From contig JABHCC010000023.1 in NCBI GenBank assembly GCA_018669475.1, positions 62,001 through 126,000 of the forward strand: a DNA stretch of 64,000 bases, in the 5' to 3' direction. Shown piece by piece: positions 2,709 through 43,396 of the stretch; position 1 is the first letter of the stretch; each line of letters opens with the position of its first letter. The stretch is from Bacteroidota bacterium (GTDB taxonomy: Bacteria > Bacteroidota > Bacteroidia > Bacteroidales > UBA12481). The position numbers and the translations under genes are program-made. The notes under the pieces are model-generated. The model ran no database searches and was not told the DNA's origin. It saw only the letters and a list, made by a program, of their open reading frames with translations.

Positions 2709-2718
2709 TTAAACTTTA

Positions 2719-25117: not shown

Positions 25118-27061
25118 ATGGATCTAAACTATTTTTATTCTATTTGTCGGCGCTACTTATTTTTTATTCTACTAGTATTAAGCCCCTTGTGTCAAATAAA
25201 TGCTCAGGAAAAGATTAATATTGATGATTTTGTTTATAATAATGGTTATAAATACCGTGAAATTATAGTATCTGACTCATTGGTTTCTATTGTTCCTGGA
25301 TTATTTGGGCCTAGTCCGTCAAACATGATAAAAAGTCCAATAATCAAATCTGTTAGTTATTATGATAAGGGATTAAGCAGTCGCCTGTGCGTATATTTAA
25401 CAGATACTATTTCATCATGGCTCCAATTAGCTGAATCTCTTAAAGCTCAAGGGATTCCGTATCGTATCACAAAGTCACTTGATGAAGCGCTCGAACATCA
25501 GGTAGTTTTAATTTACCCTGAACTAAGCAGTCGAAACCTGGATCTTACTAGTTTTAAAAAACTGAAGAAATTTCCCACTGATGGTGGAGTTTTGATTTGT
25601 TTTAAGCCTGATGCACCCTCAATGCAAAGTATCTTCGGATATAAATCTTTAGTCAAATCACGATCCCGAGAGCAGGTTGTTTTTAGTGATCAATTAGAAA
25701 CAAGTCTGCAACTTAGTGCTCACGAAGGAAACCCAGGTATTGTTCAAATAGTTTCCAAAACCAACCCTCTTGAAACCGTTGGTTACAGTGAAACAGATTA
25801 TCTCCCTTTAGCTGAGTATGATGATGGTTCAGCTGCGATTATACAAAAAATCTATAATTCAGGTGCTGCTTATGGAATTGGTTTTGATCCGGCGGAATTA
25901 TCAGCAAGTCGCCAAATCGATCAGGGTAATCCCAGCAACTTCCTGAGTAACATATATAATCAACCTGTTGATATTATATTTTGGCTGATTAAGAAGGTCT
26001 TTCAGAATCATAGTGACCATCCCGTTATACTTGGTATGGTTCCAGAATTCAAATTGCTGCCAATTATTATTACACACCATGTGACTAGCCGAATTGGTCT
26101 TCGTAGTGCTATTCTATATCAAAATCTTGAAGCAAACAACGGAATTGTAGCAACATATTTCATTCAATCCAAATACATAAAGGATACACAAGGAACAGCT
26201 TTCTTTAATCCAAATAACATCCAATATTTGAGAAAACTATCCAATAATGGGATGGAAATTGCCAGTACAGGCGTATCCAACACCCCATTTTTTGGTTATA
26301 TGAATCCGGGAACAGGACTGGAAAGTTATCCAGCTTATCGCCCGGTGATTACATCCGAAACATCAGGTTTTAATGAGACTCTTATGGGAGAATTACAAGT
26401 GAGTAAATTCCTTCTTGAGTATTATTTGAGTAACTCTATTATACAAAGTTTCAGTTCACCAACTGAAAAAATACATAAAGATTTGTATACAGGAATGGAA
26501 GTAGCTGGCTATGAATTTTCAACTTGTGCTCATGCTGCACAGGTACAAACTTATCTCCCATATTACAATCAGGAAACCATTAAAGGAAATCGCATCGGCG
26601 AAATATTGGAAATACCAGTTACTTTATCAGCTCAAGAAGTGTCTCATCTTGAAGATCCTTTGAGCTCAACAGTTTTTCGTCTCAGTAATATTGAACAATT
26701 TGGAGGTGTTGCCACAATATCTATCAAACCAAATCTTGATAAGGTCAATATTGAGTATGAGAAACAATTAATAAATCATTATATCGATGATGCCTGGTTC
26801 ACAACAGTTAAGGGATATGGTGAATGGTGGAAAGCAAGGAGCATGATTGAGCTTGATGTTGAAACTACTGAAGATTTTACTTATGTTAATCTATACGCTC
26901 CAAAATTAATAAATGATTTGCCGCTCTTATTGCCATTAGAATGGCAATATATTGGATCTCAACCTCAAGGCATTGAAATGAAAGGTCATGCACAGGGCAT
27001 TCTGATTACTGAACTGGAAGGTCGTTTAAAATTGGCTTTTAAAACTCAGTCAAATAAGTAG
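25118..27061 (+). CDS. Secreted degenerate NodB-fold (polysaccharide-deacetylase-like) protein
   Basis: A 647-aa protein with a signal peptide ending near INAQE. An N-terminal alpha/beta region (about 40-290) comes first. The region from about residue 310 (IIITHHVTSRIGLRS, ATYFIQSKYI, NNGMEIASTG) lines up with the order of NodB/CE4 deacetylase motifs. The catalytic Asp-Asp of motif 1 is replaced by His-His, and the metal-binding HxxxH of motif 2 is absent, so catalysis is doubtful. A beta-rich C-terminus follows. It is transcribed opposite to its neighbours, diverging from the SPOR/HEAT gene and overlapping the TPR/barrel gene by 16 bases at their 3' ends. It could be a PgaB-like exporter partner or a non-catalytic binder. 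Confidence 0.6.
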   Translation: MDLNYFYSICRRYLFFILLVLSPLCQINAQEKINIDDFVYNNGYKYREIIVSDSLVSIVPGLFGPSPSNMIKSPIIKSVSYYDKGLSSRLCVYLTDTISSWLQLAESLKAQGIPYRITKSLDEALEHQVVLIYPELSSRNLDLTSFKKLKKFPTDGGVLICFKPDAPSMQSIFGYKSLVKSRSREQVVFSDQLETSLQLSAHEGNPGIVQIVSKTNPLETVGYSETDYLPLAEYDDGSAAIIQKIYNSGAAYGIGFDPAELSASRQIDQGNPSNFLSNIYNQPVDIIFWLIKKVFQNHSDHPVILGMVPEFKLLPIIITHHVTSRIGLRSAILYQNLEANNGIVATYFIQSKYIKDTQGTAFFNPNNIQYLRKLSNNGMEIASTGVSNTPFFGYMNPGTGLESYPAYRPVITSETSGFNETLMGELQVSKFLLEYYLSNSIIQSFSSPTEKIHKDLYTGMEVAGYEFSTCAHAAQVQTYLPYYNQETIKGNRIGEILEIPVTLSAQEVSHLEDPLSSTVFRLSNIEQFGGVATISIKPNLDKVNIEYEKQLINHYIDDAWFTTVKGYGEWWKARSMIELDVETTEDFTYVNLYAPKLINDLPLLLPLEWQYIGSQPQGIEMKGHAQGILITELEGRLKLAFKTQSNK

Positions 27062-29406
27062 ATTACTCCCATATTCAGAGTAAGTACATTTCTAAATTTC
27101 GCCTGCAAATATTCTTCATATAGTACTCCTGCATACACTCTGAATATCCATTTTTCGGATAACAGCCGGCGGTATGCTCCAACAATCGAATATGCATTCA
27201 GGGATTGTCCCGGATTCCAATTAGGATCATTCACATACCACAAAGGATTATCTGGCGAAACACCTGAACCAACAGAAATTTGAATCCAATCTTCTGATGT
27301 TTGCAGGAAGTGCCTCAGAGATATTGAATATCCAGAAGCTAATTTTGTCACTCCTGTCGGATTAGTCAAGGACACCACCCTATTTGGGGAAAATCTGGCT
27401 CCTACTGTTACCATATTATTCCCAAAATATTTTGTGATTCCTGCATCAAACATGAGAACATTCAATGTATCTGTAGCGTTTTTGTAATATGCATAATTAA
27501 ATCCACCTGACACTTCCCAGCCATTTTTTAATCCCTGATATACATGAGCCCCAAGTACATGCCTGGCAAAAACCGCACTTGGTGAGATCGCATATGAAAG
27601 GTGAAAATACCTTTTCTTAAGTGGGAACATTGGGAAGGCGTCAATCTGAAACTGCACACCTCCATTTTTCATAAAGGGTGTGGTATCATTTGAAACATAA
27701 CCTGTGTTCAAAGAGCCAATAAAGGTGCCAATATCATTTGTTCTGTAATATTTCAGGCTATACATATTCCATCTTCGTATCAATGGTATTGTGTAGCGAT
27801 TGTGCGAAAATTCTGCCGAAATACCGTTGATTGCCATGGGTCCCTTTTGTCGGTAATATGCTTTCCTAAGCTCTTCATTATCCGGATCCAACATGAGAAG
27901 GCTTTCAATAGTTTCATTAGAATCACCAATTTCACCCATTCTTTGTTGAAACTGTGACTTCTTCAACGCCAAAGGCATATCATCCGGATATATATCCAAA
28001 CCATAATCCAATCTTTCAATTGCCTTATCAAATTGCTTGTCCCAGGCTTCAACATTAGCCATGGCAATAATGAGGTCATAATTATCGAAAGAGTCATCCA
28101 ATAGGCTATCAAACCAGGTTCTCGCCTGATTATACTCCTGGTTCCATGCGTATGTATTTCCCATTAATAATCTTGCATCCACATGAGAAGGGTCAATTTC
28201 AAGAACTTGCTGACAAAGTTTTCTTGCATCAAGGATTTGACCTAAGGCAGCCAGGCTACTTGCCTCCACAATCAGATTATCCGCATCAATACTAGTAAGA
28301 TTCTCCGTACTGGAAGCGATATCCAGATGTTCAATGTATTGTCCAGCTCCAGTTTTCCTTAATCTATTATATGCCTGAACATACAAGGCATTATCGGGAT
28401 CCATTAATAGTCCCTGATATATGATCTTTTTAGCTTCAAGCACTCTACCCTGCAATTCAAGTACTTCTGCTCTACGTAAAATAAAAGCCTCATCATCGGG
28501 ATACAACCTACTGCCAAGATCGCAATACTCCAAGGCTTTATAATACTGCTTATCCCATTTTTCAATATCTATGGCCGTAAGAATACCATCATAATATCCT
28601 GTTGCTTCAAGATTTATTTCATCTAACTCTTTGCGGGCATTAATATAATCGCTACCCCAGGCAAAAGTTTGAGCTGCTAATACCCTAGCCTGAAAAAACT
28701 CAGGACGTGCTTCCAGAATATGATATAGCAAATATCTTGATTCACCGTACTCACCTGTCCATGCATATTGTTGTGCCTGTGAAAACAGGGTATCCACATT
28801 AACTATATCGACCGGTCCGAACCTGTTACTCGGATCAACAACAGCTGGCTTCACAGGCACCGCTTCCTTCAATTCAAAGTAAAAAATTCGTGCCTCCTCG
28901 TGCGTAGGTTCTATTCTCAGGAGATTAAGTAATGCCCTTTTAGCAGTGGTAAAATCTCCTGATAATCCAGCTGCTCTGGCCTTCTTTAATAACAAATCTG
29001 TATCCTCAGGATAAAACTCCAATGCAGCATCTGCAACCTCCACAGCAGTTAATGGATGATCTGAAAATATCTCAACATCTACTAAAGCTTTTAAGGCATC
29101 GATATTGGCATTTTCATAATCAAAAATAGTATAATATATATCCCTGGCTTCTCTATATTGCTTGTTCCAGGAGTAGGTATTTCCTAATAATAACCTTGCA
29201 TCCACATACTCAGGCTTATCTCGTAAAATCCTATTACATAACAATCTGGATTGATCATATTGGCCATCCCATGCCATTTGTGTAGCAATTCGAAGGGCTT
29301 CATCATAATTAAAACTTCCTGATGCTACATCCTGAGCACTCAGACTGCCAGACCAGAAGCCTAGTGCCAGGAAAAATACAAATAGAGTTCTTTGCATATC
29401 GATCAT
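27046..29406 (-). CDS. TPR protein with YaiO-type outer-membrane beta-barrel
   Basis: A 786-aa exported protein with a signal peptide ending near SLSAQ. About 500 residues of TPR repeats follow, with repeated units like VDARLLLGNTYSWN and a near duplicate VDARLLMGNTYAWN. From about residue 524 comes a beta-barrel resembling the YaiO family (GISAEFSHNRY, LKYYRTNDIGTF), ending in an aromatic-rich strand (MGVIYLFD). A periplasmic TPR scaffold with a barrel recalls PgaA/AlgK-AlgE-type polysaccharide exporters. It abuts the receiver gene (zero-base gap) in an Hpt-receiver-TPR/barrel operon. The exporter role is inferred from architecture and context. Confidence 0.85.
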   Translation of the reverse strand: MIDMQRTLFVFFLALGFWSGSLSAQDVASGSFNYDEALRIATQMAWDGQYDQSRLLCNRILRDKPEYVDARLLLGNTYSWNKQYREARDIYYTIFDYENANIDALKALVDVEIFSDHPLTAVEVADAALEFYPEDTDLLLKKARAAGLSGDFTTAKRALLNLLRIEPTHEEARIFYFELKEAVPVKPAVVDPSNRFGPVDIVNVDTLFSQAQQYAWTGEYGESRYLLYHILEARPEFFQARVLAAQTFAWGSDYINARKELDEINLEATGYYDGILTAIDIEKWDKQYYKALEYCDLGSRLYPDDEAFILRRAEVLELQGRVLEAKKIIYQGLLMDPDNALYVQAYNRLRKTGAGQYIEHLDIASSTENLTSIDADNLIVEASSLAALGQILDARKLCQQVLEIDPSHVDARLLMGNTYAWNQEYNQARTWFDSLLDDSFDNYDLIIAMANVEAWDKQFDKAIERLDYGLDIYPDDMPLALKKSQFQQRMGEIGDSNETIESLLMLDPDNEELRKAYYRQKGPMAINGISAEFSHNRYTIPLIRRWNMYSLKYYRTNDIGTFIGSLNTGYVSNDTTPFMKNGGVQFQIDAFPMFPLKKRYFHLSYAISPSAVFARHVLGAHVYQGLKNGWEVSGGFNYAYYKNATDTLNVLMFDAGITKYFGNNMVTVGARFSPNRVVSLTNPTGVTKLASGYSISLRHFLQTSEDWIQISVGSGVSPDNPLWYVNDPNWNPGQSLNAYSIVGAYRRLLSEKWIFRVYAGVLYEEYLQAKFRNVLTLNMGVIYLFD

Positions 29407-29778
29407 TTATCTCCGTAAAAGCATCTTTTTTACTCTGATTGATAACTCATTTGGGCTAAATGGCTTTGTCAGATATTCATCAGCACCTAATTCAAATGCC
29501 TGCAGAACAGTATCTTCATTTCCAACTCGTGACAAAACCATAATAGGAAGTTTAGATTGAAACTGCACACGAACGAGATTAATCAACTCCAAACCACTAA
29601 CAAACGGCATTAGCATATCAGTTATAATAATATCAAATGAATCCATAGATCTGGATACCATTTCACTAGCTTCTCTACCATCTTTAGCAATTATAACTTC
29701 ATGTCCATCTGCCTTCAATCTATGCTCTAATGTTTTTAACATCATAAAGTCATCATCACATACCATGATACGTGCCAT
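29407..29778 (-). CDS. Single-domain response regulator (CheY-like receiver)
   Basis: A 123-aa receiver with the acidic pocket (CDDD), phospho-acceptor D54 in ITDMLMPFVSG and conserved K in TKPFSPNE. It has no effector domain. It sits between the Hpt protein gene (12 bases upstream) and the TPR/barrel gene (immediately downstream), so it probably forms a phosphotransfer pair with that Hpt protein. Its output is likely by protein contact, possibly with the polysaccharide machinery. Confidence 0.92.
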   Translation of the reverse strand: MARIMVCDDDFMMLKTLEHRLKADGHEVIIAKDGREASEMVSRSMDSFDIIITDMLMPFVSGLELINLVRVQFQSKLPIMVLSRVGNEDTVLQAFELGADEYLTKPFSPNELSIRVKKMLLRR

Positions 29779-29790
29779 AATAATTAGCTT

Positions 29791-30144
29791 TTAGGTTAAG
29801 ATCGAATTAAAATCTCTTTTTAGTTCCAATAATAATTCCTTACAGAATGTATCGATGATTAGCCATTTTGCAGGAATATCTTCAATATTAAGCTCTTTCT
29901 CAGCAAGCCTCTCTAAATCGTTAGCGACAGGAATAATACTATTTGCACCAATCATATTCAGGTTTGCAATATAACGATGAATTAATTCTCTTACTTCAAC
30001 CCAATCCTCTATTTTCAAAAATTGTTTCATCTCGTCCAAAACTTTCGGAGTATTTGTGAAAAAGTATTGAATCATCTCATTCTTGAAACTCTCATCTCCG
30101 TCGGCTAATTGATCGAGATATTCTAAATCATAGAGCTTATCCAT
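29791..30144 (-). CDS. Hpt (histidine phosphotransfer) domain protein
   Basis: A 117-aa all-helical protein matching the Hpt fold, with phospho-acceptor H56 in ELIHRYIANLNMIGA. It would carry phosphate between hybrid kinases and the adjacent single receiver. It is the only Hpt gene in the window. The cluster of hybrid kinases at 4.3-11.7 kb lacks one, so a connection is possible but unproven. It lies 45 bases downstream of the giant CotH gene in the same orientation. Confidence 0.82.
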   Translation of the reverse strand: MDKLYDLEYLDQLADGDESFKNEMIQYFFTNTPKVLDEMKQFLKIEDWVEVRELIHRYIANLNMIGANSIIPVANDLERLAEKELNIEDIPAKWLIIDTFCKELLLELKRDFNSILT

Positions 30145-30189: not shown

Positions 30190-33100
30190 TCAATCCATCA
30201 TTATGAATCTTTTTGTTAACACCTGATTATTAATAAGTATGCGTATTAAATAAATTCCAGTTTTAAATCCTTCACTTTTTAAGTTCACAACAAACTCAAA
30301 GTTGCCATTAGGGTAATTCTGAGAACCATCATCCAATACCAATACTGTTTCGCCCATTGCATTCATTATCTGCATATTAAATACTGATGCATTCTCCAAT
30401 ATGACCTGAATATACAAATCCTGGCTAACGGGATTAGGATATATCCTTACTTGATTATTAAGGATTTCGGATTTCTCGAGACCACTGGAAGCCTGATTTG
30501 AGCGAAGTGGAGTTGGTTCATTAAAAAATACCCAAGGCAGTCCTGCGTCTGTTGTCCTTCCATAACTGATATTGTTTGTTTGAGCTGGATACATAATATC
30601 ATCAACAACACTCAACTGACCCAAATACCTCTGAGATAAAGCGATATACTCACCCCCGCCTGCTAGTTGGAAGTTGGTATGCTGAACACCCAGGTCTGGA
30701 TCACCACTGGGATAAAGCATTAGGTATCCTTTTGCAGATAATGTGGTTATTTCAGGTGAGGATACAGGGATTTGCCAAAACTCCAAATCTGAACTACGAT
30801 CGGTGATAAATAAACCCCCAATATCAACGGCTTCATCATTTGAGTTATAAATCTCAATCCAGTCATCGTACTGATTAACATTATTCAGATGCACACTAGT
30901 ATTCCTGGCCATGAATTCATTGATATACAAGCCACTTATAGCAGATGAATTGTCTGAATTTGATGCTCCGGGTGTAGGAGAAGCAAAGCTCTGCCATACC
31001 GGGTAGCCATCAGAAGCTCTACCATAAGAAACATCAGTTTGCTGTTCGGTATAGCTTATCTCATCGATAAGAGAATAAGTTCCATTCTGCATTAAATAAA
31101 GTCCGATTTCTCCACTGCTTCCGGAGAGCATAAAAGATAAATGGTATTCACCAGCATCGGAATCATCATCAGCTCTTAACACCATAAAACCATTTGGTTC
31201 AATAAATAATAAATCATCATCCGCGGCACTAAGAATGTGCATGTCCGGTGTACCAAGATCTCTTGTAATGCTGACATCCTTCAAATTAAGCATGTGTGAG
31301 GATCCATTATACAATTCAATCCAATCGCTCACATTTCCATTTTCATCTGGATAAAAAGCATAACTACGTGCCACAAATTCATTTAGAAATAGCTCTTCAA
31401 GCGGAGCAGTTTCATTAGGCTCTCCAGGTGTTCCACCAATGAAATAACTGGTCCTCCAATTTTGCACAAAAGAGTTATCCATGAATGGATCTTTCAGTTC
31501 AAGACTAGGCCCTTTTCCATTTGGCCATTCAGTCCAATCTTCACTATTATTGTAAATGACAAAATCTATTTCTGAGTCATCTGCTGATAATAATCTTACA
31601 ATTCCAGAACTTGAAGGTAAAGATCCATTATCCCATTCAAAGCACTGTATACCCCTGGCTGCATAAATTTCCTTACTCTCACAAATCACTAAATACTGAT
31701 ATGGCATTAACACCTGAGACTGAGGAAAATCATAATTGACATCACCAGTTATTTTGTAACCTGCTAGTTCCACCTGAAAACTATTAGGATTATAGAGCTC
31801 TATAAATTCAGAACTTTGGGCATCTTTGGGAGAATAATGTATCTCATTAATTATTAAAGAACTAAAGCTTTGTCCTCCTCCCAAATATTGGTAAGCACCC
31901 ATTTCGGTGATAGTACCATCATCATCAATTGCTGAAGATGGATCACCGGAGTTGATACAAGGAGATCCTGGAAGTAATGTATAGTCAGATATTCCTTGAT
32001 CATTGAAAACTGGATCTCCCAATATATTGCCAGTCCCGACATGAACTAATTCTGTACTCAATGTGAAATCAAGCTCAAGTGAAACACTTCCCTCCGAATA
32101 TATATCGCTGTCTGACTCCGATAAAACTGAATTATGGATCTGAACACCTGGATTATTTCCGCCAATATTTCCATTAATTATTCGGATGGCCTCATTATTA
32201 TTATGAAAAGTGAGATGATCTACAACAGCTTTTGAGTTACCATACACATAAATACCCACCCCTGAGGTACCAATAGCAGAGTTTTCAACATATAGATTAC
32301 CTGACAAAGATGCGATAGCCACATCCGCAACACCTTCAAAAAATGAGTGCTTAATTATGGCATCTATTTGATTTTCTATCTGAATTCCACTAGCATCCAA
32401 ATCATCAAAATATGAGTTCTCAATAAGTATCTCATCTGTTGTACCTTCTTTTTCACCATAGGATAGTATTGCCATAGGATCTCCAGCACCTACTCCTGCA
32501 TTTGTACCAGGAATATCCACAAAATAGCAGTGATTTATCAATGATGATGATTTTTCAAGTTCAACACCACTTGCCAACCCAGATATGACACAATCCTGCA
32601 TCTCAAGATGAGAGTTGTTCATATATACTGCTTTACCTTCATTTTCAATCAAGTAAACATTATCTAAAACTAAATCAGCATAACTTGATACAATAGCCTG
32701 ATCTTGGAATCTCCCAATATTTGAAGGACTGCCTCCTCCTCCACCTGTAATAAAACAATGTGAGATTGAAGAATAGCTGTTGAGGTTATTAATCTGTATC
32801 CCTCCCCAATTCTCTCCTGATTCAAGAGGCATGATAATGACGGGGTCTTCCTGAGTTCCTTCAATAATAATATTCCCTTCAACAACAAAATTGGCGTATT
32901 TGGAGACAAGAATTCGGGTTCCAGCTTTAATAGTTAATGTGGCCGTTGACGGAATTAGAATCGTATAAGTAATGTGATAATCATGCTCCTTGGTCCAAGT
33001 TTCTGACCTGCCTAATTTCTCATTTCTGGTACGAATAGGACGATACTCATCATATTGCACATGCAGGCTGTCCTCTTCAATTTTCAACACCCCTGATTGC

Positions 33101-36100
33101 TCATATCCCGGATCGATCCAGGATATTCCTAGTCCCTTATTAAAAACAATATTCTGAGTTTGCTTACTGTCCTGTTCCAGATCTAAAGCAATATTCTGAT
33201 TAATCATTTCAGGATAAGGGTATTTTTCTCCTCCAAGCACAGTAATAACGGGAAAAATTTCATTTTTTGTAAAGATTCGTGGAGCTCTCAGATACTCACT
33301 GGACCTAAAATTGGAGCTTTTTGGTGTTGGCGTGTCATATATCATCCATTTCGTGCCTCCATCCGGGTAACAAGCGTAAGATTGATTCTCCGGAATCAAG
33401 TCATACACAATTTTTGACACTAATTGCATGGTGGTAGCATCGCTTTCTAAATAATATAATTCCAACTCTCCTCCTGTATTTTCAGGATTAAGTTGAAGAT
33501 GCGAAAAACCAAGGTCTGGTTTTCCATCCAGATTAAGTAGCAAGAATCCACCAGGCTTTATCAATGTAGCGGAAGGATCAGAGATTGATATTTGATCCTG
33601 CTGTAATATTTTTGAATCTTTTATTATCCATCCCCCTGCATTGACAGCATAATCACTACCATTGAAGATCTCAATCCAGGAAGAAAACTCATCGGCATCA
33701 TTCCTGAAAAAATCTTCATTTTTTAACATTATCTCATTAAAACTAATTTTTGAAAAATCCGGAACTCTGTTCAGCCTGCCAGGTGTTCCCCACACTTCAT
33801 AGCTTGAGCGCCAATTGATCGCTTGTGAATTGTTTTCTTGTGGATCTGATAATTCTAAAGAAAACCCATTTCCATCAGCCAAGGGGGACCATGGTTGTTT
33901 ATCTGAATATTCTATCTGATTGATTATATCGCCAGTAGAGCTAATAAATTGAATAACTTCACCAGTATTGGACAATTTGCCATCATCATATTCAAACACC
34001 TGACATTCCAAATCGGAATATGCATTCTTATCAGCAACAACCATTAAATACTCACCTGCATCCACCCATGTGTCAAATGGGAAAACAAAATCAACAGCTT
34101 TTGATATTTTATATCCGGAGACATTTATCTTATTTGAAGTTGGATTAAAAATTTCAATGAACTCCCATTCGTCATCAGGCCCCTGATTATCAGGAGCATT
34201 ATAATAAATCTCATTAATAATTACATCTCCTGCTGTTCCATTATTGTATGGATACCTGCCCATATCGGTACGGGTACCATCCGGATCGAGCTCACTAAGT
34301 GGGTCACCGGAATCAATTGCTGGCGAACCGTTCAGTAATCTGAAATTATCATCATGTGAATTTAAATATTCAGCTTCACCTTGCAGGTTATTCTCACCAG
34401 GCAAAACTTGCTCATCAGAAAGGCAAAAAAAGAATGCGGGTCCCAAAGAATACTCATCATGCATTTCTTGATCATGATAATTTGTCAAAATTGAATTATA
34501 TACATCTACACCCCCAAAGCGTTGATTGTATAATGGACGTCCGGTTTTGTGGAAGGTAGTATGATTAACAATCACCGAAGACCACCACCCTGAGGAGATT
34601 CCAATATTGCAATCAATAACTAAGCATCTATCATAATATGCAATAGACCTGTACCCTATTGATGAGGCCTTATCAATAATATCATAAAAACCACAATTCC
34701 TGATTATTACATCGGTTTCAAGCATGTCAATCGCATCATCCTCCACATTGACAACAACACAGTTTTCAAATATGGATGGGCCGACAGAATTGTTGTATTC
34801 CTTCCAGAAATATATGCCATCAGCATCATCACTATCAAGAATTCTATCAGGGTCAGGCATATCCATAATCCATGAATTTGATACTTCACTGTATGAATTT
34901 CTAAATTCAGGTCCCATTGCACTGGTGGCAAACAAACAATTATCGATTTTGATTTGCGCGAACTCTGAACCAAATGCTTTACCAATATTATCAAAAACAT
35001 AACAATTTGACAGTTTCAAATCGGCCTGATCAGCCCTGATAACAGCCTGTGTTTCTGTATGATAAAACTGATGATCAAAATCATTCCCGCCAGACACAAA
35101 AAAAGCATAATTCAATTCTGATTCCGAATCCTGCTCTTTGATCCATAACCCTCCCCAGGGTTCATCTTCGTTCTGAGGCATAAAAACAACAGGACGTATT
35201 GATGATCCTCTAATTTCCACCGGGCCATTACTAATGATATTCACCTCATTACCCAGCTTTATTCTGGCCCCTCTTTCAATAGTCAAAGAACCAAACTGAC
35301 CAATATTCAGATCGGTATTAATCAGGTAATCGATACCACTAAGAAGGGTTAAATCAGAGTTGTAATCCTCAAGTAAGGTAATAGCAGGAATTTGATCCTT
35401 TACTTGAACAAAGCACAAATCATCGAGGTCTTCAATGGTAAATTCAAAATCATCTGAAGCTTCAATGGTAGTCAAGACATATCCAACACCTTTTCTACAT
35501 AGGATGGTTGAAGGCGAGAAACTTACATTTGATGCCAAAAGGCTTTTGGCACCTTCAAAACTCTGATCAACTGAACCATCTTCGTTTAGCACTTTAATAT
35601 ATATAGGAACCTGGTCTCCTGATTCAATTTGATATGGCGCAATAATAAATTTAGAATTTGGCAAATTGATATCTCCAGGACTAGGTTCATCATATCTTTG
35701 CCATTCACCTGAACCATCTGGAAATCTCCCGAATGATTCACCATCTCCCTGAATTTCATATTGAATGTAATCAAGTATGGTGATAAATCCAGTAGTAGCC
35801 AGGCTCATAGTTAGATCGCCTGACTTTCCCGAGAGCTTGAAATCTGCATGTAAAGCCCCTTTTTCGGGATCACTATCTGCTACTATCAGGATAAACTCCC
35901 CGGGCTCTAAAATTGTCAACTCAGGTGCTGAATAGTCTATCTGCCATTTCATAGGTTCATCATATCTGTCGCTGAAGTATAATCCAGCGATATCGACAGA
36001 GTGATCTCCTGTATTCGAAATTTCAAACCAATCCAGGTTCTTCAAATATCCCTGGTCAACAGGATTTGCCAATAATTCATTTAAATGAATTCCTTCATAA

Positions 36101-39100
36101 TATCTTGAATTCTCCAGAAGGGGACTTCCTCCAGTAGCCAGGCTAGCAGCCCAATTTTCTGCTAAACTATTATCCTTAGAACCATGAATCAGTTCGATTG
36201 AAGAGCCATTAAGTAAATTATTCAGTGGCCATGGTGCACTAGTTCCATATGTCAGCTGATCGGCGATCTCACCAGAAAGTGCTCTTAGGACAATTGATTC
36301 TCCATCATATGCCAAGTCTCCTGAGGTCCATTGATATATCTTACCCGGAATAGCCTGAAAAACAGAACTATTCTTACAAATTATTACTCTTTCGTTTGGT
36401 ATTAACACTGTACCTGATGGAAAAACAAAATTTATCCCCTCGGTAAAAGTAAATCCACTAACATCAACAGTCTTTTTCGAAAAATTAACCAATTCAACAA
36501 ACTGTGCCTGATTTCCTCCAATATCATCCGCCGGAGCATACAATATTTCTGAAATAAGAATGGGACCCTGAGAAGATTTACTAAAATAGGCGGTTATATT
36601 TAAGTCGACCGAGCTCTCAATGACTAATTTATTTGTAGAGCTGCCCCCTTGTCCTAAACCAATTAATTCTAAATCGAAACTCAGATCAGGTGAATTAACG
36701 CGATCCTGATGAATTTCAACAGCGATAATATTATCTCCAGGCAGCATGTAATCAGACGAAAAGTTATACTCAAAATAAACTGACTCATCTAGCCAAGGAG
36801 TCATCTCTGTAGCAAGACTTGAATAGACAATATTACCGGATGGCATATTAGATCTAGCCACCTCAGTTCCATTTACGTATACTACAGCTCCATCATCTCT
36901 GAGCAAACCGATCCTGATCAAATCAAACTGATCAGGATTATCCACATTAATTGTTTTTCGAAAATAAACAGTGGAAGGCTTATTGTCAGGATCATTGCCA
37001 AACCCAATTTCAGTCTCAACTACATTATCATAGCCAAGAGGCCCTAATCCATTTTTCCAGTCTGTATCATCAAATGACACTTCTCTCCAAATAGTTCCTA
37101 AATCTACTCCAAGTTCATGGTATTTCCAGTCAGATTCCTTTGGAATCAGAATAAGAGAGGAGGTAGCTACACCGGATGACCATGATTCAAAAGAGTACCC
37201 TGGATGAGACAAAGCTTCAAGTTCAAAGGCAACACTATTATACATCTCACCATTGAATTGATCACCAGTTACATATTTTCCATTAACAAGTAATTCGCCA
37301 GCCTCCGCTGGTTCAACAGAAAAAACAGTTGAAATCTTTCCACTTAGGCCAAAATAATTATTCAGATATTGTTCGGTATACTGAGGTCTGTTTTTTGCAT
37401 AATATCTACCTATTTCAACCTTTTGAGCCCAATCTGCCTTGTCAACAACCATACCTGGATAAGTTCCGCCCCATTTTTCCAGATGACGGTTTATTTGATG
37501 ATCAATGCGATCAGCTAAACTATCAATGAAGTGTATCATTCGGTTTTCCTCGAATGTTGTTTGGTCGAGTGCAGCAAGTCGTTGAATAAATCTTTGTCTA
37601 AAACTTTCGTTTGTTATCAATCTGGAGAACACCGGATCGTTATCTCCGATACTTTTAAGAATATCGGCATCAACTATGCTATAACCGTAATCAAGATCAA
37701 ATAATAACCATTTAAACTTGCCACCAGGTACTTTTGGACGCCATACCCGACGGTTATGCCACCAGCTTTTGTTGGCTGTTAAAACCTCTGCTGAGATGTA
37801 ATCTATAAAATTATCAACATCAATCATTGACTCAACAAAATCGAAATTCGAATCAATTGTTAAATCATTGTGTTCAATAAAATTAAGTAATATTTTATAT
37901 GCAGCAGCATCTCCTGCTTTAATCTCAATATATGCTGGTGAGAAGTCATTGTCAATATATAACAGATCAATTCCATTGGGGTCTATTCCATGATGCTTGG
38001 CCAAATAGGATTCATTATATTTTTCTCTGAAATTATGAATCCCCATATACTCCCCATTAATGAAAAGAATACTCTGCTTCAAAGCTTGCACATCCAGGGA
38101 GGTTTGATTCTCAATAGCGCTCTGAATCATTCCATCCTTAAACAGGGTGTATCTCCAATCATCACTAGAACTTCTGAGAATAAAACTTTCAAAATACTGC
38201 AAATCAGAACTGGGGAAAATTGGATAATCAATATAATTCTTACCATCTGTTTCCCTGGGAAATATTGCCAGTGATTTCTGAGGAAAATTAATAGCTCCTC
38301 TACCGAATAGTCTTATATCAACATTGGCGATGAATGCAAGAGAACCATCCTCTTCAAATAGTTCAAATGTTGCCGGGCGCTCCCATTCCTTTCTATCCTT
38401 AACATTCTCATCAATATAAAACCCAATTTCATTATTGTATAAATAATCATCCTCTAAAGCAATTGAAACGATTGGAAGATTTATTCCCTCATTAATCAGA
38501 TAGGTATTCGTTTCAACGAGACTGGATAACACTCCATCTTGTATTATCCTTGCTTTAACAACCTGCGTTTCATTTATAGAAAGTGGACTATTGTATTCAT
38601 GGGAATAGATATCCGGAGTGCTGCCATTTAATGTGTAATAGATCTTTCCAGATTTATTAACATTCCCAATACTCAATTGTATTCCAGAAGTATAAATCCC
38701 CCCTGCTATGCTAAACACTGGTTTTGCTACACGATCAGAAGAGTTAACGCCTAATCCATTATTAGTACCAACAGTGGATTCTGAGAAGAATTGGTTTTCA
38801 TTTATATTATCAGGGTTTCTTCCATACGATATATCAGTTTCCTGCTTTGGAAAGATCAGAGTATCAACAATTCCTCCCTGCCAATCATATAGCCCTAAAA
38901 TTTCACCGTTTGAGGATAGCTGGAAATTAGTATGTCTGAGGGTATCGCGATTATCAGCATAAAAAAGAACAAACTCGCCAGGGCCAAGTTTAATGTTATT
39001 TGGTATACGCCATTTTTCAGTTTCAGAAGGATCATCACTGAGAAAATACCCTGAGATATCCTGTTGTTCATCTGAAACATTATATAATTCAATTAAATCA

Positions 39101-39807
39101 GAAAATTGATTAAAATCTCCTTCGATGAAAGTTGAATGATTAGTAGCATAAACCTCATTAATTATAACAGTTTTTGGAAAGCGTTCTGAAGCTGACAAGG
39201 CCATGTCAAATCCCAAATCAGTACTGGCTGGATCTGCCTGATGTATCTCAACTGCCAGAGTGTTTTCACCTTCAATTAAATCTGCAGCACTTAATGAGTA
39301 GCTATAATATCTACTTTCATCTTCACCACCAGTAGAAGTTAATGCAAGGACATCAAATCCCGTCTTTTCTGGCATATTAGAGAGCAGGATCTTCTGCTCG
39401 TTCAAATAAACTACGGCGCCATCATCTCTGAGTAGCTCTATTTCTATAGAATTGTATTTCTCAGGATCAGGCAAATAAAACTTTTTTCTAAAATAGTAAG
39501 TTATTGTTTTGTCTGCCGGATCGTTTCCATAGAACAATTCCGTTGAAATGTCATCCTCACCGTAGCCAAATTTCCCTGCTCCATATTCCCATTCAGAAGT
39601 GCTATAATCCTCAGTCACCCATGTGGTTCCCAAATCATGGCCCTGATCATTATAATGCCAGATTGAATGGCGATTAATTAAATCTTTTACTTCCTGCGCA
39701 GAGAGATCCATAACTGAAAAGAAACTGCATAGAATTATGATGATAATTAGAACCAGATTGATTCTAACGCAGGTCACTGAGGGTTTTAGTCCATACTTGC
39801 CCATCAT
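30190..39807 (-). CDS. Giant secreted CotH-kinase/lamin-tail/beta-helix protein with T9SS sorting domain
   Basis: A 3205-aa protein with a signal peptide ending near MDLSAQ. In order: galactose-binding-like module (about 40-210), lamin-tail domain 1 (from 212), Fn3/chitobiase-associated domain (about 365-445), CotH kinase domain (about 450-830; FINGEYMGIHN near 580, LLFDLDYG near 703), a second galactose-binding-like module (about 890-1055), lamin-tail 2 and 3 (from 1084), parallel beta-helix (about 1477-1855), lamin-tail 4 and 5 (from 1860 and 2016), second beta-helix (about 2272-2650), lamin-tail 6, 7 and 8 (from 2652, 2804 and 2959) and a T9SS type A sorting domain (from 3117, YPNPVSQ). 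CotH domains are atypical secreted kinases; the other modules suggest matrix or wall binding. The 1178-aa paralogue lies 52 bases upstream. Confidence 0.9.
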   Translation of the reverse strand: MMGKYGLKPSVTCVRINLVLIIIIILCSFFSVMDLSAQEVKDLINRHSIWHYNDQGHDLGTTWVTEDYSTSEWEYGAGKFGYGEDDISTELFYGNDPADKTITYYFRKKFYLPDPEKYNSIEIELLRDDGAVVYLNEQKILLSNMPEKTGFDVLALTSTGGEDESRYYSYSLSAADLIEGENTLAVEIHQADPASTDLGFDMALSASERFPKTVIINEVYATNHSTFIEGDFNQFSDLIELYNVSDEQQDISGYFLSDDPSETEKWRIPNNIKLGPGEFVLFYADNRDTLRHTNFQLSSNGEILGLYDWQGGIVDTLIFPKQETDISYGRNPDNINENQFFSESTVGTNNGLGVNSSDRVAKPVFSIAGGIYTSGIQLSIGNVNKSGKIYYTLNGSTPDIYSHEYNSPLSINETQVVKARIIQDGVLSSLVETNTYLINEGINLPIVSIALEDDYLYNNEIGFYIDENVKDRKEWERPATFELFEEDGSLAFIANVDIRLFGRGAINFPQKSLAIFPRETDGKNYIDYPIFPSSDLQYFESFILRSSSDDWRYTLFKDGMIQSAIENQTSLDVQALKQSILFINGEYMGIHNFREKYNESYLAKHHGIDPNGIDLLYIDNDFSPAYIEIKAGDAAAYKILLNFIEHNDLTIDSNFDFVESMIDVDNFIDYISAEVLTANKSWWHNRRVWRPKVPGGKFKWLLFDLDYGYSIVDADILKSIGDNDPVFSRLITNESFRQRFIQRLAALDQTTFEENRMIHFIDSLADRIDHQINRHLEKWGGTYPGMVVDKADWAQKVEIGRYYAKNRPQYTEQYLNNYFGLSGKISTVFSVEPAEAGELLVNGKYVTGDQFNGEMYNSVAFELEALSHPGYSFESWSSGVATSSLILIPKESDWKYHELGVDLGTIWREVSFDDTDWKNGLGPLGYDNVVETEIGFGNDPDNKPSTVYFRKTINVDNPDQFDLIRIGLLRDDGAVVYVNGTEVARSNMPSGNIVYSSLATEMTPWLDESVYFEYNFSSDYMLPGDNIIAVEIHQDRVNSPDLSFDLELIGLGQGGSSTNKLVIESSVDLNITAYFSKSSQGPILISEILYAPADDIGGNQAQFVELVNFSKKTVDVSGFTFTEGINFVFPSGTVLIPNERVIICKNSSVFQAIPGKIYQWTSGDLAYDGESIVLRALSGEIADQLTYGTSAPWPLNNLLNGSSIELIHGSKDNSLAENWAASLATGGSPLLENSRYYEGIHLNELLANPVDQGYLKNLDWFEISNTGDHSVDIAGLYFSDRYDEPMKWQIDYSAPELTILEPGEFILIVADSDPEKGALHADFKLSGKSGDLTMSLATTGFITILDYIQYEIQGDGESFGRFPDGSGEWQRYDEPSPGDINLPNSKFIIAPYQIESGDQVPIYIKVLNEDGSVDQSFEGAKSLLASNVSFSPSTILCRKGVGYVLTTIEASDDFEFTIEDLDDLCFVQVKDQIPAITLLEDYNSDLTLLSGIDYLINTDLNIGQFGSLTIERGARIKLGNEVNIISNGPVEIRGSSIRPVVFMPQNEDEPWGGLWIKEQDSESELNYAFFVSGGNDFDHQFYHTETQAVIRADQADLKLSNCYVFDNIGKAFGSEFAQIKIDNCLFATSAMGPEFRNSYSEVSNSWIMDMPDPDRILDSDDADGIYFWKEYNNSVGPSIFENCVVVNVEDDAIDMLETDVIIRNCGFYDIIDKASSIGYRSIAYYDRCLVIDCNIGISSGWWSSVIVNHTTFHKTGRPLYNQRFGGVDVYNSILTNYHDQEMHDEYSLGPAFFFCLSDEQVLPGENNLQGEAEYLNSHDDNFRLLNGSPAIDSGDPLSELDPDGTRTDMGRYPYNNGTAGDVIINEIYYNAPDNQGPDDEWEFIEIFNPTSNKINVSGYKISKAVDFVFPFDTWVDAGEYLMVVADKNAYSDLECQVFEYDDGKLSNTGEVIQFISSTGDIINQIEYSDKQPWSPLADGNGFSLELSDPQENNSQAINWRSSYEVWGTPGRLNRVPDFSKISFNEIMLKNEDFFRNDADEFSSWIEIFNGSDYAVNAGGWIIKDSKILQQDQISISDPSATLIKPGGFLLLNLDGKPDLGFSHLQLNPENTGGELELYYLESDATTMQLVSKIVYDLIPENQSYACYPDGGTKWMIYDTPTPKSSNFRSSEYLRAPRIFTKNEIFPVITVLGGEKYPYPEMINQNIALDLEQDSKQTQNIVFNKGLGISWIDPGYEQSGVLKIEEDSLHVQYDEYRPIRTRNEKLGRSETWTKEHDYHITYTILIPSTATLTIKAGTRILVSKYANFVVEGNIIIEGTQEDPVIIMPLESGENWGGIQINNLNSYSSISHCFITGGGGGSPSNIGRFQDQAIVSSYADLVLDNVYLIENEGKAVYMNNSHLEMQDCVISGLASGVELEKSSSLINHCYFVDIPGTNAGVGAGDPMAILSYGEKEGTTDEILIENSYFDDLDASGIQIENQIDAIIKHSFFEGVADVAIASLSGNLYVENSAIGTSGVGIYVYGNSKAVVDHLTFHNNNEAIRIINGNIGGNNPGVQIHNSVLSESDSDIYSEGSVSLELDFTLSTELVHVGTGNILGDPVFNDQGISDYTLLPGSPCINSGDPSSAIDDDGTITEMGAYQYLGGGQSFSSLIINEIHYSPKDAQSSEFIELYNPNSFQVELAGYKITGDVNYDFPQSQVLMPYQYLVICESKEIYAARGIQCFEWDNGSLPSSSGIVRLLSADDSEIDFVIYNNSEDWTEWPNGKGPSLELKDPFMDNSFVQNWRTSYFIGGTPGEPNETAPLEELFLNEFVARSYAFYPDENGNVSDWIELYNGSSHMLNLKDVSITRDLGTPDMHILSAADDDLLFIEPNGFMVLRADDDSDAGEYHLSFMLSGSSGEIGLYLMQNGTYSLIDEISYTEQQTDVSYGRASDGYPVWQSFASPTPGASNSDNSSAISGLYINEFMARNTSVHLNNVNQYDDWIEIYNSNDEAVDIGGLFITDRSSDLEFWQIPVSSPEITTLSAKGYLMLYPSGDPDLGVQHTNFQLAGGGEYIALSQRYLGQLSVVDDIMYPAQTNNISYGRTTDAGLPWVFFNEPTPLRSNQASSGLEKSEILNNQVRIYPNPVSQDLYIQVILENASVFNMQIMNAMGETVLVLDDGSQNYPNGNFEFVVNLKSEGFKTGIYLIRILINNQVLTKRFIMMD

Positions 39808-39859: not shown

Positions 39860-42800
39860 TTAATATTCAAGTATCATCTTCCATGCATCCCATAGATATA
39901 GTCCGACCATGCGATAAATGTAAATTCCGGGATCAAGTAATTTTCCCTGATCATCTCTTCCATCCCAATCAACAAAGTATGATCCACGCTTGAAATCCTC
40001 ATCTATAAGATTCCTGACCGGATATCCTTTCATATCAAAAATGGTTAAAACGAGGTGTTGCTCAATGGCCACGTCAAACATGATTTTTGTAGATTCATAA
40101 AAAGGATTTGGAGCATTTTGATGCAGAATAAAAGGAATATTATCCGGTATATCGACTGTATCAGGATCAGCTATGTTACTGGCTCCTGGAGTCGGATATT
40201 TTTTAAACATCACCAATTCATTGCTCCCATCCGTTTCCCTACCATATGATACATTCCTCTCGATACTGGGGAAAGTCAAAGTGTCAAGCCATTGAAACTG
40301 TCCGTCAATATCACATCCAAATCCAACTTGCTCGCCTTCACTGGTGAGTCTGAATCCAACATGATCAAAGCCTAAGACAGTTTGTTCATCAGTCCAGAAT
40401 AACCTGTACTCACCTGCACCAATCATAATTGGAACAGGATCAGCTTTGCTGATAGTATGTTTTTTTGGCTCATTAAAATCATCGGTCATATAAAAGCCAT
40501 TAATTACAACATCCTGATCACCACTATTATAAATTTCAACCCAATCTCTGAAAGCTCCGGTCTCATCTGCGTAAAAATCATAATTACGAGGCATAATTTC
40601 ATTAATGACTAAATCCGGAAGGAAATTATCATCACTAAAAACTGCCACAAGCTGTGTTTTTCCAGAATAACTCTGATTCAGTACAGGATTACTTGATTGA
40701 GTTGTTTGACCATCAGTGAATTGTACTTCAACCATCAGGTTCATATCAAAGGTAAGATCCGAACTTCCCGGAGAAACCTGATGCACCTCAACAGCCAGAA
40801 CATTCTTACCATCTCTGAATGAAAACCCATTAATCTCCTCGCTATAATAGATTTTATCGTCAGATCCTGACACACCTTCAGAAGCCAAAGTACTATATTC
40901 AACAGATCCTGGCCCCATATTCATTCTGGTCATTTCCTGACCATTCAGATAAATGACTATGCCATCATCCCTCTGAACATTGATTTCGACAGGAGCAAAC
41001 TGATTTTTATCGTTTATAGTAAATTCCTTACGAAAGTATGTGGTAATATACTTGTTCCCTTCATCTGTTCCAAAATTCATTATTGTTGAAACATAGCTAT
41101 GGCCATATCCAAAAACTCCATTTCCTGAAGACCATGCCAAATCATTATAATCAGTTTGATTCCAGGAGCTGGCTGGTCTGCTGCCTTTATCCCAGTATTT
41201 CCATTCAGATCTTTTCTTTACCAGTTCGGTTATTTCACCTGCTATAAAATCAGCAACCGTAATTTCCCAATGTGAAAAGAGATATCCTGGCTTATTTAGT
41301 GCTTGTATTTCTGGTGATTGTGGCCCCAGATCTATCCATGCTGTCTTGTCTTCCACAAAGCCAAAATTATCATAAAGAATAGATCCTGAACCCGGAGGAT
41401 CGACACTCAGCTCCAGTGCAAAACTTTCTGGTTTACTAAAGAAATCCATCATTTGCTGCAGGACATACTCTCCACGTACATTAGCTATATCACGGAAATC
41501 CTGAACATTATCCTCCCATGTTGCAAAATCCTCGATCCATGGTTGTTCAAACATACCAGATGATTCGCTGTAATATGTCCAACCATGCTCTCCGTACCAC
41601 CGTTCAATATGTCTCATCATTTCAGGCCTGATAAGGTTTTGAACACTATCAATAACATGAATCATTCTATCCCTTGAAAATGTTGTGTTCATATGATAAA
41701 CCATTGCTTTCCTGAATTGTTCAACAAATCCCTGATTATCCATCAGGCCCTGTAAAATATCAGTATTAGCATATTGCCAAGTAGGATCAACAGCATTAAG
41801 GAAAACATTTATATCGCTATCAAGGAAGCCCCAGTCAAGATCATATAATATCCATCTCCACTTACCAGAGCCATCAATCTTCTGCCAGCACTTTGTGTTT
41901 GAGCCAGGCCAGTCAAGATTTCCAACAAATATTTCAACAATGAGATAATTAATAAAGGCATTAATATCAATTCTCGAGGAGACATATTGATAGTATTCAC
42001 TAATTGACAGATCGTGATCAATAATATACCTTTCCAGAGCAACATATTCTTCATTTGTACCTGTTTTGGCATCCCAGCCACCAGCGACAAAGTCTATTTC
42101 ATTCTTTCCCAATCCAAAGTTATCCTGTATGTAATCAGGTCCGATTCGTTCGCGAATATTGTGTATTCCCCAATATTCACCATTCAGGAACATTATTGCC
42201 GGTTGATAAGCCTGCCAATCCACATCGAGGCGGTTGGCAATAATAGATTGCATCATACCGTCAGCCATCATTGTTAGTCCCCAATCATTACCCGAGCTCC
42301 TGAGTAAAACTTCTTCAAACTCATCCAGGTTTTTAGTCTCAAAAAACTTATAATTCAATTTGCCGGGTCCTAAATCACCTTTAGCTTTGAAGCGAAGAGA
42401 TTTTTGGTTTGCAGTTCTGGTTAGTCCTCCTGCAATCTCAATCCCACCATACTGACTGATTTGCTTATTCCCTTCAGCATCCCAGAATTCGCCATGAGCA
42501 ATTTTCTCCCAGTTTTGCATATAATTTCCATCGGGCCACACAAATCCTCTTCCCTCAGTATAAATCCCATAGTCAAGGTGCCATAAGTTATTTGGCTCTG
42601 TCGTAATTGAAAATACGGGCAATGAAGTAGATTCATTGATAAAATACGTATTGGTTATAATATCTGAAGGGAGATAATCCTTCTTCCAGGCCTGAAACCG
42701 AATCACAGTGGTCTTAGTTATAGTCAAAGGATTTCCAACATACAAGATGCCTGAGGGATATGGATTTGTACCATCAGTAGAATAATAAACATCCCCATCT

Positions 42801-43396
42801 TCAGGAGAAATAAAAGAGATCGATTGAGACCCAATGTAGAATCCGCTCTCAATGTTCGGGATCGGATCAACCATTTTTGCCAGACTTCCTTCACTGGGAT
42901 TAGATGATCCTGGTGTTGCATTAGCCAGGAAAATCCATTCTTCACCACCATCTCCCTTCCTTCCAAAGCTCAAATCTTCCACTTGTTCCCCAAACGACAA
43001 GGAATCAGCTATTTCACCAGATTCATCCAATAGTAAAATCATTTCTCCCGAACCACTGAGTTTAAAATTTGTATGCATTCCAAAATCAAGTCCGTCAGCC
43101 CAAATCAGAATGTGGGATTGAGGATCAATGAAAGTATTTTGCGGAAGAAACCACTTCTCAAGTTCAGTTGTATCATCTGTCAATACCCATCCGGAGAGAT
43201 CAGTCTGCTGCAGAGAAACATTATATATTTCAACCCAATCACCATATTTTGCAGAATCAGGATCAGCAATAGTGCTAGTATTTCTGGCCTGAAATTCATT
43301 GATTAACACCTGACTAAATAACATGCCCGGGAAGATGACAAGCACAATCCCAATAAAGAAAATTCTCCAAAACCTATATCCTGACACTATACTCAT
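39860..43396 (-). CDS. Secreted CotH-kinase/lamin-tail protein with FlgD-like C-terminus
   Basis: A 1178-aa protein with a signal peptide. Domains are lamin-tail (about 29-150), Fn3/chitobiase-associated (about 175-255), CotH kinase (about 265-650; FLNGEYWGIHN, ILYDLDWG near 517), a galactose-binding-like module (about 725-890) shared with the giant neighbour, lamin-tail 2 (from 930) and a FlgD/T9SS-like Ig domain (about 1089-1178; NAPNPF, FDMKGYPV, WDGRDDQG, GIYIYRM). The C-terminal domain may act as a secretion signal, as similar ones do in Bacteroidota. Both CotH genes keep the DLD metal-site motif, so activity is plausible. A -7 box lies upstream. Confidence 0.9.
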   Translation of the reverse strand: MSIVSGYRFWRIFFIGIVLVIFPGMLFSQVLINEFQARNTSTIADPDSAKYGDWVEIYNVSLQQTDLSGWVLTDDTTELEKWFLPQNTFIDPQSHILIWADGLDFGMHTNFKLSGSGEMILLLDESGEIADSLSFGEQVEDLSFGRKGDGGEEWIFLANATPGSSNPSEGSLAKMVDPIPNIESGFYIGSQSISFISPEDGDVYYSTDGTNPYPSGILYVGNPLTITKTTVIRFQAWKKDYLPSDIITNTYFINESTSLPVFSITTEPNNLWHLDYGIYTEGRGFVWPDGNYMQNWEKIAHGEFWDAEGNKQISQYGGIEIAGGLTRTANQKSLRFKAKGDLGPGKLNYKFFETKNLDEFEEVLLRSSGNDWGLTMMADGMMQSIIANRLDVDWQAYQPAIMFLNGEYWGIHNIRERIGPDYIQDNFGLGKNEIDFVAGGWDAKTGTNEEYVALERYIIDHDLSISEYYQYVSSRIDINAFINYLIVEIFVGNLDWPGSNTKCWQKIDGSGKWRWILYDLDWGFLDSDINVFLNAVDPTWQYANTDILQGLMDNQGFVEQFRKAMVYHMNTTFSRDRMIHVIDSVQNLIRPEMMRHIERWYGEHGWTYYSESSGMFEQPWIEDFATWEDNVQDFRDIANVRGEYVLQQMMDFFSKPESFALELSVDPPGSGSILYDNFGFVEDKTAWIDLGPQSPEIQALNKPGYLFSHWEITVADFIAGEITELVKKRSEWKYWDKGSRPASSWNQTDYNDLAWSSGNGVFGYGHSYVSTIMNFGTDEGNKYITTYFRKEFTINDKNQFAPVEINVQRDDGIVIYLNGQEMTRMNMGPGSVEYSTLASEGVSGSDDKIYYSEEINGFSFRDGKNVLAVEVHQVSPGSSDLTFDMNLMVEVQFTDGQTTQSSNPVLNQSYSGKTQLVAVFSDDNFLPDLVINEIMPRNYDFYADETGAFRDWVEIYNSGDQDVVINGFYMTDDFNEPKKHTISKADPVPIMIGAGEYRLFWTDEQTVLGFDHVGFRLTSEGEQVGFGCDIDGQFQWLDTLTFPSIERNVSYGRETDGSNELVMFKKYPTPGASNIADPDTVDIPDNIPFILHQNAPNPFYESTKIMFDVAIEQHLVLTIFDMKGYPVRNLIDEDFKRGSYFVDWDGRDDQGKLLDPGIYIYRMVGLYLWDAWKMILEY

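Follow-up and report, generated by a model that had tools for sequence, protein, structure and literature searches.

Can a CotH domain that is built into a giant, presumably secreted protein still work as a protein kinase, or does it serve another purpose there? This question is raised by one gene in the window, i.e. the whole stretch of 64,000 nucleotides from a Bacteroidota bacterium (GenBank assembly GCA_018669475.1, contig JABHCC010000023.1) that was analysed here. An earlier note on this DNA had described the gene product, in the following named CotH2, as a 3205-residue CotH protein with eight lamin-tail domains (LTDs) and two beta-helices, and had seen in it an exported matrix or surface protein that modifies its partners. 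Judging from the sequence we suggest, with a probability of about 0.6, that CotH2 is a T9SS-exported scaffold of a synthase-dependent exopolysaccharide matrix, its CotH domain being more likely a ligand-binding or regulatory pseudokinase than an ordinary kinase. The features of CotH2 are the following (positions of the window, residues of the protein):

30190..39807, minus strand: CotH2 (P0001), predicted exported protein of 3205 aa; whole open reading frame, ATG start, no internal stop
39694..39807, minus strand: signal peptide region, residues 1-38, recognised by eye from the sequence
39193..39690, minus strand: N-terminal segment without Pfam family, residues ~36/40-205, resembling residues 884-1080
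38758..39174, minus strand: LTD1, residues ~212-350 (Pfam LTD, 4.6e-14)
38515..38706, minus strand: CHB_HEX_C_1 / Fn3_assoc domain, residues 368-431 (Pfam)
37378..38316, minus strand: CotH domain, Ser-type, residues 498-810 (Pfam, 1.3e-32; fold by model)
36568..37158, minus strand: second segment without Pfam family, residues 884-1080 (segment scan)
35638..36564, minus strand: lamin-tail pair 2-3, residues ~1082-1390 (Pfam)
34258..35637, minus strand: beta-helix 1 region, residues 1391-1850 (alignment with helix 2, AlphaFold2 model, Foldseek)
33298..34236, minus strand: lamin-tail pair 4-5, residues ~1858-2170 (Pfam)
31864..33240, minus strand: beta-helix 2 region, residues ~2190-2648 (Beta_helix PF13229, 2.3e-13)
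30493..31860, minus strand: LTD6-8, residues ~2650-3105 (Pfam)
30202..30444, minus strand: T9SS C-terminal sorting domain, residues 3122-3202 (Por_Secre_tail, 34.4 bits vs. a cut-off of 27)

LTD1, the CHB_HEX domain and the CotH domain are followed by a family-less segment, LTD2-3, helix 1, LTD4-5, helix 2, LTD6-8 and the sorting domain. The segment scans agree with the order given in the earlier note (a lamin-tail pair and a beta-helix, twice, then three lamin-tails and a T9SS domain), and the domain inventory is confirmed by the open reading frame and by Pfam, which recognised the LTDs, the CotH domain, helix 2 and the sorting domain; Foldseek supports the CotH domain and helix 1. Pfam finds eight LTD stretches in the whole protein (E 2.7e-93), grouped as one (ahead of CotH), two, two and three, with starts placed by sequence near residues 212, 1082, 1239, 1860, 2020, 2650, 2804 and 2958. 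Three of the five LTDs that were scanned singly score slightly below the cut-off of 34.3 bits (LTD2 30.1, LTD3 34.2, LTD5 27.8), partly because the segment cuts clipped some LTDs.

The Pfam scan gave no match for beta-helix 1 and no family for the segments ~36-205 and 884-1080. When aligned, helix 1 and helix 2 share 28% identity. The AlphaFold2 model of helix 1 (three sequences) has a mean pLDDT of 70; over model residues 91-390 most values are 80-92, falling to 55-60 in places. In Foldseek the top rows for this model belong to proteins with a right-handed beta-helix (E from 1.1e-05, TM only 0.2-0.4), including PL6 lyases, the AlgG epimerase, tailspikes and the PfbA adhesin; this fold is common to polysaccharide lyases, epimerases and tailspikes. 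Whole CotH2 has no match among PDB sequences, and its N-terminal segment has three weak ones (E 0.29-0.66). An alignment also relates residues 43-189 to the second segment in an orthologue of CotH1, the product of the adjacent gene (see below).

CotH2 has the features of a T9SS cargo, namely a signal peptide (by eye) and a sorting domain, in a genome that also encodes the T9SS parts SprA and PorU. It is predicted to be exported by this system into the matrix of the neighbouring exopolysaccharide locus, where its beta-helices and lamin-tail domains may form a long rod binding polymer and/or the cell surface. The role as matrix or surface protein proposed in the earlier note holds up, together with architecture and secretion signal, and is strengthened by the exopolysaccharide neighbourhood.

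That CotH2 might be an assembly chimera, a caveat of the earlier note, is ruled out by two observations. The same genome (G000) encodes on contig C77 a full-length paralogue (3186-3190 aa) that aligns with CotH2 over 3164 residues at 47% identity, and in the relative G005 three contigs carry collinear CotH2 pieces at their ends, flanked by the neighbour genes of the window in the same order. We infer that these three pieces are one CotH2-like gene. The C77 paralogue (L051) likewise has serine in its active-site motif (N-R-S-W-R-H-N), and next to it are three more proteins (987, 428 and 378 aa) that can be aligned with CotH2 outside the CotH domain.

The model of CotH2 residues 427-878 (AlphaFold2, 36 sequences; pLDDT 86, pTM 0.88) matches Bacillus cereus CotH, 5jd9 and 5jda, with Foldseek E-values of 5e-13 and 4e-13. 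Structural alignment yields Z-scores of 33.5 (5jd9) and 33.4 (5jda) with an rmsd of 2.3-2.4 A over 330-331 residues, the next rows (PI4K, PI3K, Fam20) being far lower (Z 9-12). The modelled domain has the CotH fold. CotH is reported to keep the equivalents of PKA D166, N171 and D184 (accessible text of PMC12189002), of which CotH2 has lost the first and kept the other two:

37765..37767, minus strand: codon of Ser681 at the position of the catalytic Asp (B. subtilis D228 / PKA D166; profile alignment)
37753..37758, minus strand: His684-Asn685 of the S-x-x-H-N motif (Asn = PKA N171; alignment)
37696..37698, minus strand: Asp704, kept (B. subtilis D251 / PKA D184; alignment)

In the profile alignment to 5jd9 the catalytic Asp corresponds to Ser681 and the second Asp to Asp704. 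The loop containing Ser681 is one residue shorter, and the spacing from Ser681 to Asp704, counted by hand, is 23 as between D228 and D251 of B. subtilis. An alignment error at the motif is ruled out by this spacing and by the recurrence of the same motif in HMM-derived alignments before and after enlargement of the set. A comparison of the kinase residues with the CotH structure, as advised in the earlier note, therefore gives a divided result: the catalytic Asp is absent but Lys511, Glu595, Asn685, Phe703, Asp704 and Asp706 are present. Phe703 occupies the position of Trp245, which according to the accessible text of PMC12189002 forms the adenine sandwich of CotH together with Tyr142; the position of the latter falls close to Leu615, where the alignment has many gaps.

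The CotH variants D228Q and D251A were reported as catalytically inactive (PMC7821199, accessible part), and two Legionella families lacking D166 but possessing N171 and D184 are termed pseudokinases in the accessible part of PMC9758233. The absence of the catalytic Asp speaks against CotH2 being an ordinary kinase. Since this residue is replaced by Ser in a loop shortened by one residue, CotH2 most likely does not perform CotH-like protein phosphorylation, and the assumption that it modifies its partners finds no support as far as this domain is concerned. With the kinase fold and the conserved pocket maintained around Ser681, the domain most likely binds a ligand or partner instead of phosphorylating proteins. 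Binding of nucleotide or metal is possible because the other pocket residues are kept; these same residues (Lys511 to Asp706 as listed above) count to some degree against the preferred explanation, as they allow nucleotide binding and residual or altered activity.

The serine is not restricted to CotH2. Among 188 distinct CotH domains (213 aligned domains after removal of contained copies) the catalytic position is occupied by Asp in 133, Ser in 48, Glu in two, Phe in one and Leu in one, with three domains not reaching it; this set is enriched for the Ser-type because one query (A2) had been built from Ser-type proteins. In the nearest genomes only 6 of the 131 domains reaching the motif have Ser, besides 118 with Asp, three with Glu, three with His and one with Asn. 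The latter count is based on Pfam CotH matches in 60 related genomes including the own one (138 domains or fragments, seven of them not reaching the motif) and left out two N-terminal fragments (G028:C332 and G024:C163). The four single domains with other residues (L186 and L210 with Glu, L126 with Phe, L129 with Leu) possibly represent separate losses of the Asp. Five weak CotH matches (L270, L272, L273, L274 and L275, the second from the window's own genome) show His, Asn or Glu at this position, where their alignment is uncertain; three of them read xHGxxWHNQR, and the five may be a second lineage without Asp.

All 48 Ser-type domains share Asn679, Ser681, His684 and Asn685. Asp704 and Asp706 are invariant (47/47 each) and Lys511 is found in 45 of 47. 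Since Ser, His and Asn are invariant across these 48 domains, Ser at the catalytic position marks a subfamily and not decay. The distance between Ser and Asn is 4 in 48/48, compared with 5 between Asp and Asn in all 28 Asp-type domains with the shared His591 and Arg594; a spacing of 4 is not diagnostic by itself because that of the Asp-type varies (n = 133; 5 in 99, 4 in 8, other values in 26). An aromatic residue at the Trp245 position occurs in 8/47 Ser-type but 122/133 Asp-type domains, and position 595 is acidic in 20/48 but 127/133. Unlike most gathered Ser-type members CotH2 itself retains both (Phe703 and Glu595).

Of 48 named loci in public genomes 40 have the Ser motif, seven lack it (all Fibrobacter by record title) and one is a fragment. 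Record titles assign 39 of the 40 to Bacteroidota. The remaining one (L073, JABHYP010000547.1) is a short contig of 3.7 kb labelled Latescibacterota, with a Ser-type CotH 42% identical to CotH2, reflecting either transfer or mis-binning. Of 393 genomes in the order, 103 match the domain profile A2 at E <= 1e-40. The window's own genome matches CotH 12 times, including once in a different frame, 3190 residues long, whose domain is 58% identical. Large CotH proteins are thus less exceptional than the word "unusual" in the earlier note implied for this combination of domains.

Trees of CotH domains were computed with the motif masked and 26 Ser-type representatives. A quick tree of 149 rows splits the Ser-type in two, so two changes are needed and starred branches force two, whereas in a reduced tree of 82 rows the Ser-type is joined with one change (support 84, not starred). 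In the AU comparison the one-clade tree is 66 log units better than the tree from the free search (p-AU 0.966). A single ancient origin of the Ser motif is preferred but not proven; two independent origins are disfavoured, not disproven, by the 82-row tree and the AU comparison. Among the matches listed in a literature search, whose coverage mostly excluded subscription journals, no CotH clade lacking the catalytic Asp was found. It is conceivable, though rather doubtful, that the S-x-x-H-N domains form an ancient, mainly bacteroidotal subfamily whose pocket was rebuilt to serve another reaction or ligand outside the cell, e.g. modification or binding of exopolysaccharide. This would be in line with a pocket in which Ser, His, Asn and two Asp do not vary and the adenine-stacking aromatic is usually missing, and other kinase-fold proteins that were re-purposed provide a precedent.

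The same residues bear on the explanation that CotH2 is still a protein kinase, with His684 or water serving as base or with the Asp being dispensable. Invariant His684, Asn685, Asp704 and Asp706 and almost invariant Lys511 would fit it, and some pseudokinases retain activity (PMC9403797, accessible part), but the inactivity of D228Q CotH (PMC7821199, accessible part) and the loss of the adenine-stacking aromatic in 39 of 47 gathered Ser-type members make such a mechanism unlikely.

Alternatively, CotH2 could be a plain structural adhesin with its CotH domain a fossil retained for folding alone, as LTDs and beta-helices make up much of the chain and the catalytic Asp is lost. With corrected segment boundaries the CotH domain is 62% identical between CotH2 and the C77 paralogue, and among 16 approximate segments only LTD8 (66%) is higher; in the comparison with G005 the CotH segment reaches 46%, next to LTD8 with 47% and the N-terminal segment with 46%. 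A fossil is not expected among the best conserved segments of the protein, nor does it agree with five invariant residues (Ser681, His684, Asn685, Asp704, Asp706) throughout the Ser-type set, and hence this alternative seems quite improbable.

The suggested role of CotH2 as a matrix scaffold draws on its neighbours, which look like a synthase-type exopolysaccharide locus as far as their sequences tell:

44220..45389, minus strand: family-less 389-aa protein, conserved with the locus (no Pfam or NCBIfam match above cut-off)
43466..44227, minus strand: GH16-like protein (1.8e-05)
39860..43396, minus strand: CotH1, 1178 aa, two LTDs and a CotH domain with intact catalytic Asp; adjoins CotH2
29791..30144, minus strand: Hpt-like protein (family search)
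29407..29778, minus strand: single-domain response regulator (family search)
27046..29406, minus strand: TPR and YaiO outer-membrane beta-barrel protein, presumably for polymer export (family search)
25118..27061, plus strand: family-less 647-aa protein, conserved in the locus (no Pfam or NCBIfam match above cut-off)
22890..24848, minus strand: SPOR and HEAT-repeat protein (family search)
21444..22883, minus strand: GT2 glycosyltransferase, PgaC-like (family search)

From the family-less 389-aa gene through the YaiO barrel the genes are nearly contiguous on one strand (gaps of -8 to 69 bp). The GT2 scores 124.9 bits against the PgaC equivalog, far below its cut-off of 422.3, so that no particular polymer can be assigned to the locus, a point against the preferred explanation. 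The YaiO barrel protein is likewise under the Pga equivalog cut-offs. The 647-aa protein, considered as a candidate PgaB deacetylase, has no Pfam or NCBIfam match; its gene ends convergently on the YaiO gene with an overlap of 16 bp. The Hpt-like protein keeps its His (..IHRYIANLNMIGA..) and lacks the residues that usually follow it. Its orthologues in G005 and G001 (L055 and L067) read alike, IHKFTPNLNM and IHRFIPNLNM, and this conserved degenerate Hpt adjoins a stand-alone receiver.

The order of the window is kept in G005, with the family-less 389-aa gene, GH16 and CotH1 on one side of CotH2, CotH1 adjoining its start, and with Hpt, response regulator, YaiO barrel, 647-aa gene, SPOR-HEAT and GT2 on the other side. 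In G001 the downstream half of this order lies on one contig, and another carries the family-less gene, GH16, a beta-helix/LTD protein and CotH1; CotH1 and the C-terminal part of CotH2 are both present, on different contigs. The beta-helix/LTD protein preceding this CotH1 has 1062 aa and matches the part of CotH2 after the CotH domain. A same-genus CotH1 orthologue (L262, G001:C66, 4990-8073) has one in-frame stop between collinear pieces of 879 and 148 aa, which is either a real interruption or an assembly error.

GT2 relatives (E <= 1e-60) occur in 11 of the 60 genomes, own included. Five other GT2 loci, two from the same family (G006, G009) and three from the same order (G018, G037, G039), combine GT2 with HEAT protein, YaiO barrel and response regulator. 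Four of these five, including G006 and G009, have no match to CotH1 or CotH2; the locus of G037 also contains the family-less gene, GH16 and a CotH with Asp. CotH1 and CotH2 accompany the exopolysaccharide core in G000, G001 and G005, all three belonging to this family. Since most other GT2 loci lack them, both CotH genes look like a later addition to an older exopolysaccharide core. That the link is seen in few genomes counts against the preferred explanation. None of the 40 Ser-motif loci, many on short contigs, match the exopolysaccharide genes, and in gene lists inspected by eye without family searches for 12 loci (11 named Ser-type ones and the C77 paralogue) no shared partner is evident.

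Adjacency of the two CotH genes leads to a further, possible but doubtful explanation by analogy, namely that the CotH2 pseudokinase would bind CotH1 and activate or localise it on the matrix as in the pair Fam20A-Fam20C, which offers a precedent (PMC4421793, PMC7948968, accessible parts). CotH1 keeps the catalytic Asp, Lys, Asn and both downstream Asp, its gene is separated from that of CotH2 by 52 bp on the same strand, and the arrangement in G005 and co-occurrence in G001 would be compatible with a functional pair. On the other hand just 2 of the 40 Ser-motif loci, many on short contigs, hold another CotH without the motif, and the residue lost by Fam20A is a different one (PMC7948968, accessible part).

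We return to the matrix scaffold with a putative pseudokinase domain as the preferred reading. The Pfam model matched by CotH2 is named "CotH kinase protein", yet it covers a Bacteroidota lineage without the catalytic Asp and with an otherwise conserved pocket. If our reading is correct this would be a natural family of extracellular bacterial pseudokinases or re-purposed kinases. A kinase/pseudokinase pair in a single exopolysaccharide locus would make it directly testable what CotH does in matrix assembly, a role mentioned without explanation for Pel loci in the accessible parts of PMC7112168 and PMC12345266. The connection between CotH and exopolysaccharide is already known in outline; new are the Ser-type site and the setting in Bacteroidota.

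With PgaA-PgaC and YaiO-type systems the window shares a PgaC-like GT2 and a TPR/YaiO outer-membrane barrel; it differs in that both remain below the cut-offs and in additional genes for HEAT protein, response regulator, GH16 and CotH. The Bacillus spore-coat kinase CotH (PF08757, 5jd9/5jda) agrees with CotH2 in fold (Z 33.5), family profile, active-site Asn and second Asp. In contrast with it CotH2 has Ser for the catalytic Asp in the shorter loop, and its domain is one part of a 3205-aa chain that also has a T9SS tail and arrays of LTDs and beta-helices. Fam20A and Fam20C (accessible parts of PMC4421793 and PMC7948968) resemble the two CotH proteins in the related atypical kinase fold and in the extracellular occurrence of an inactive (Fam20A) or Asp-less (CotH2) paralogue beside an intact one, but a different residue was lost and the pairing of CotH1 and CotH2 consists in gene adjacency only. 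Secreted CotH proteins such as SIR_1594 are encoded with synthase-dependent Pel loci of Gram-positive bacteria, and the SIR_1594 mutant showed reduced aggregation (PMC7112168, PMC12345266, accessible parts). As there, CotH stands in the window beside a synthase-dependent exopolysaccharide system; polymer system and accessory domains, on the other hand, are different ones.
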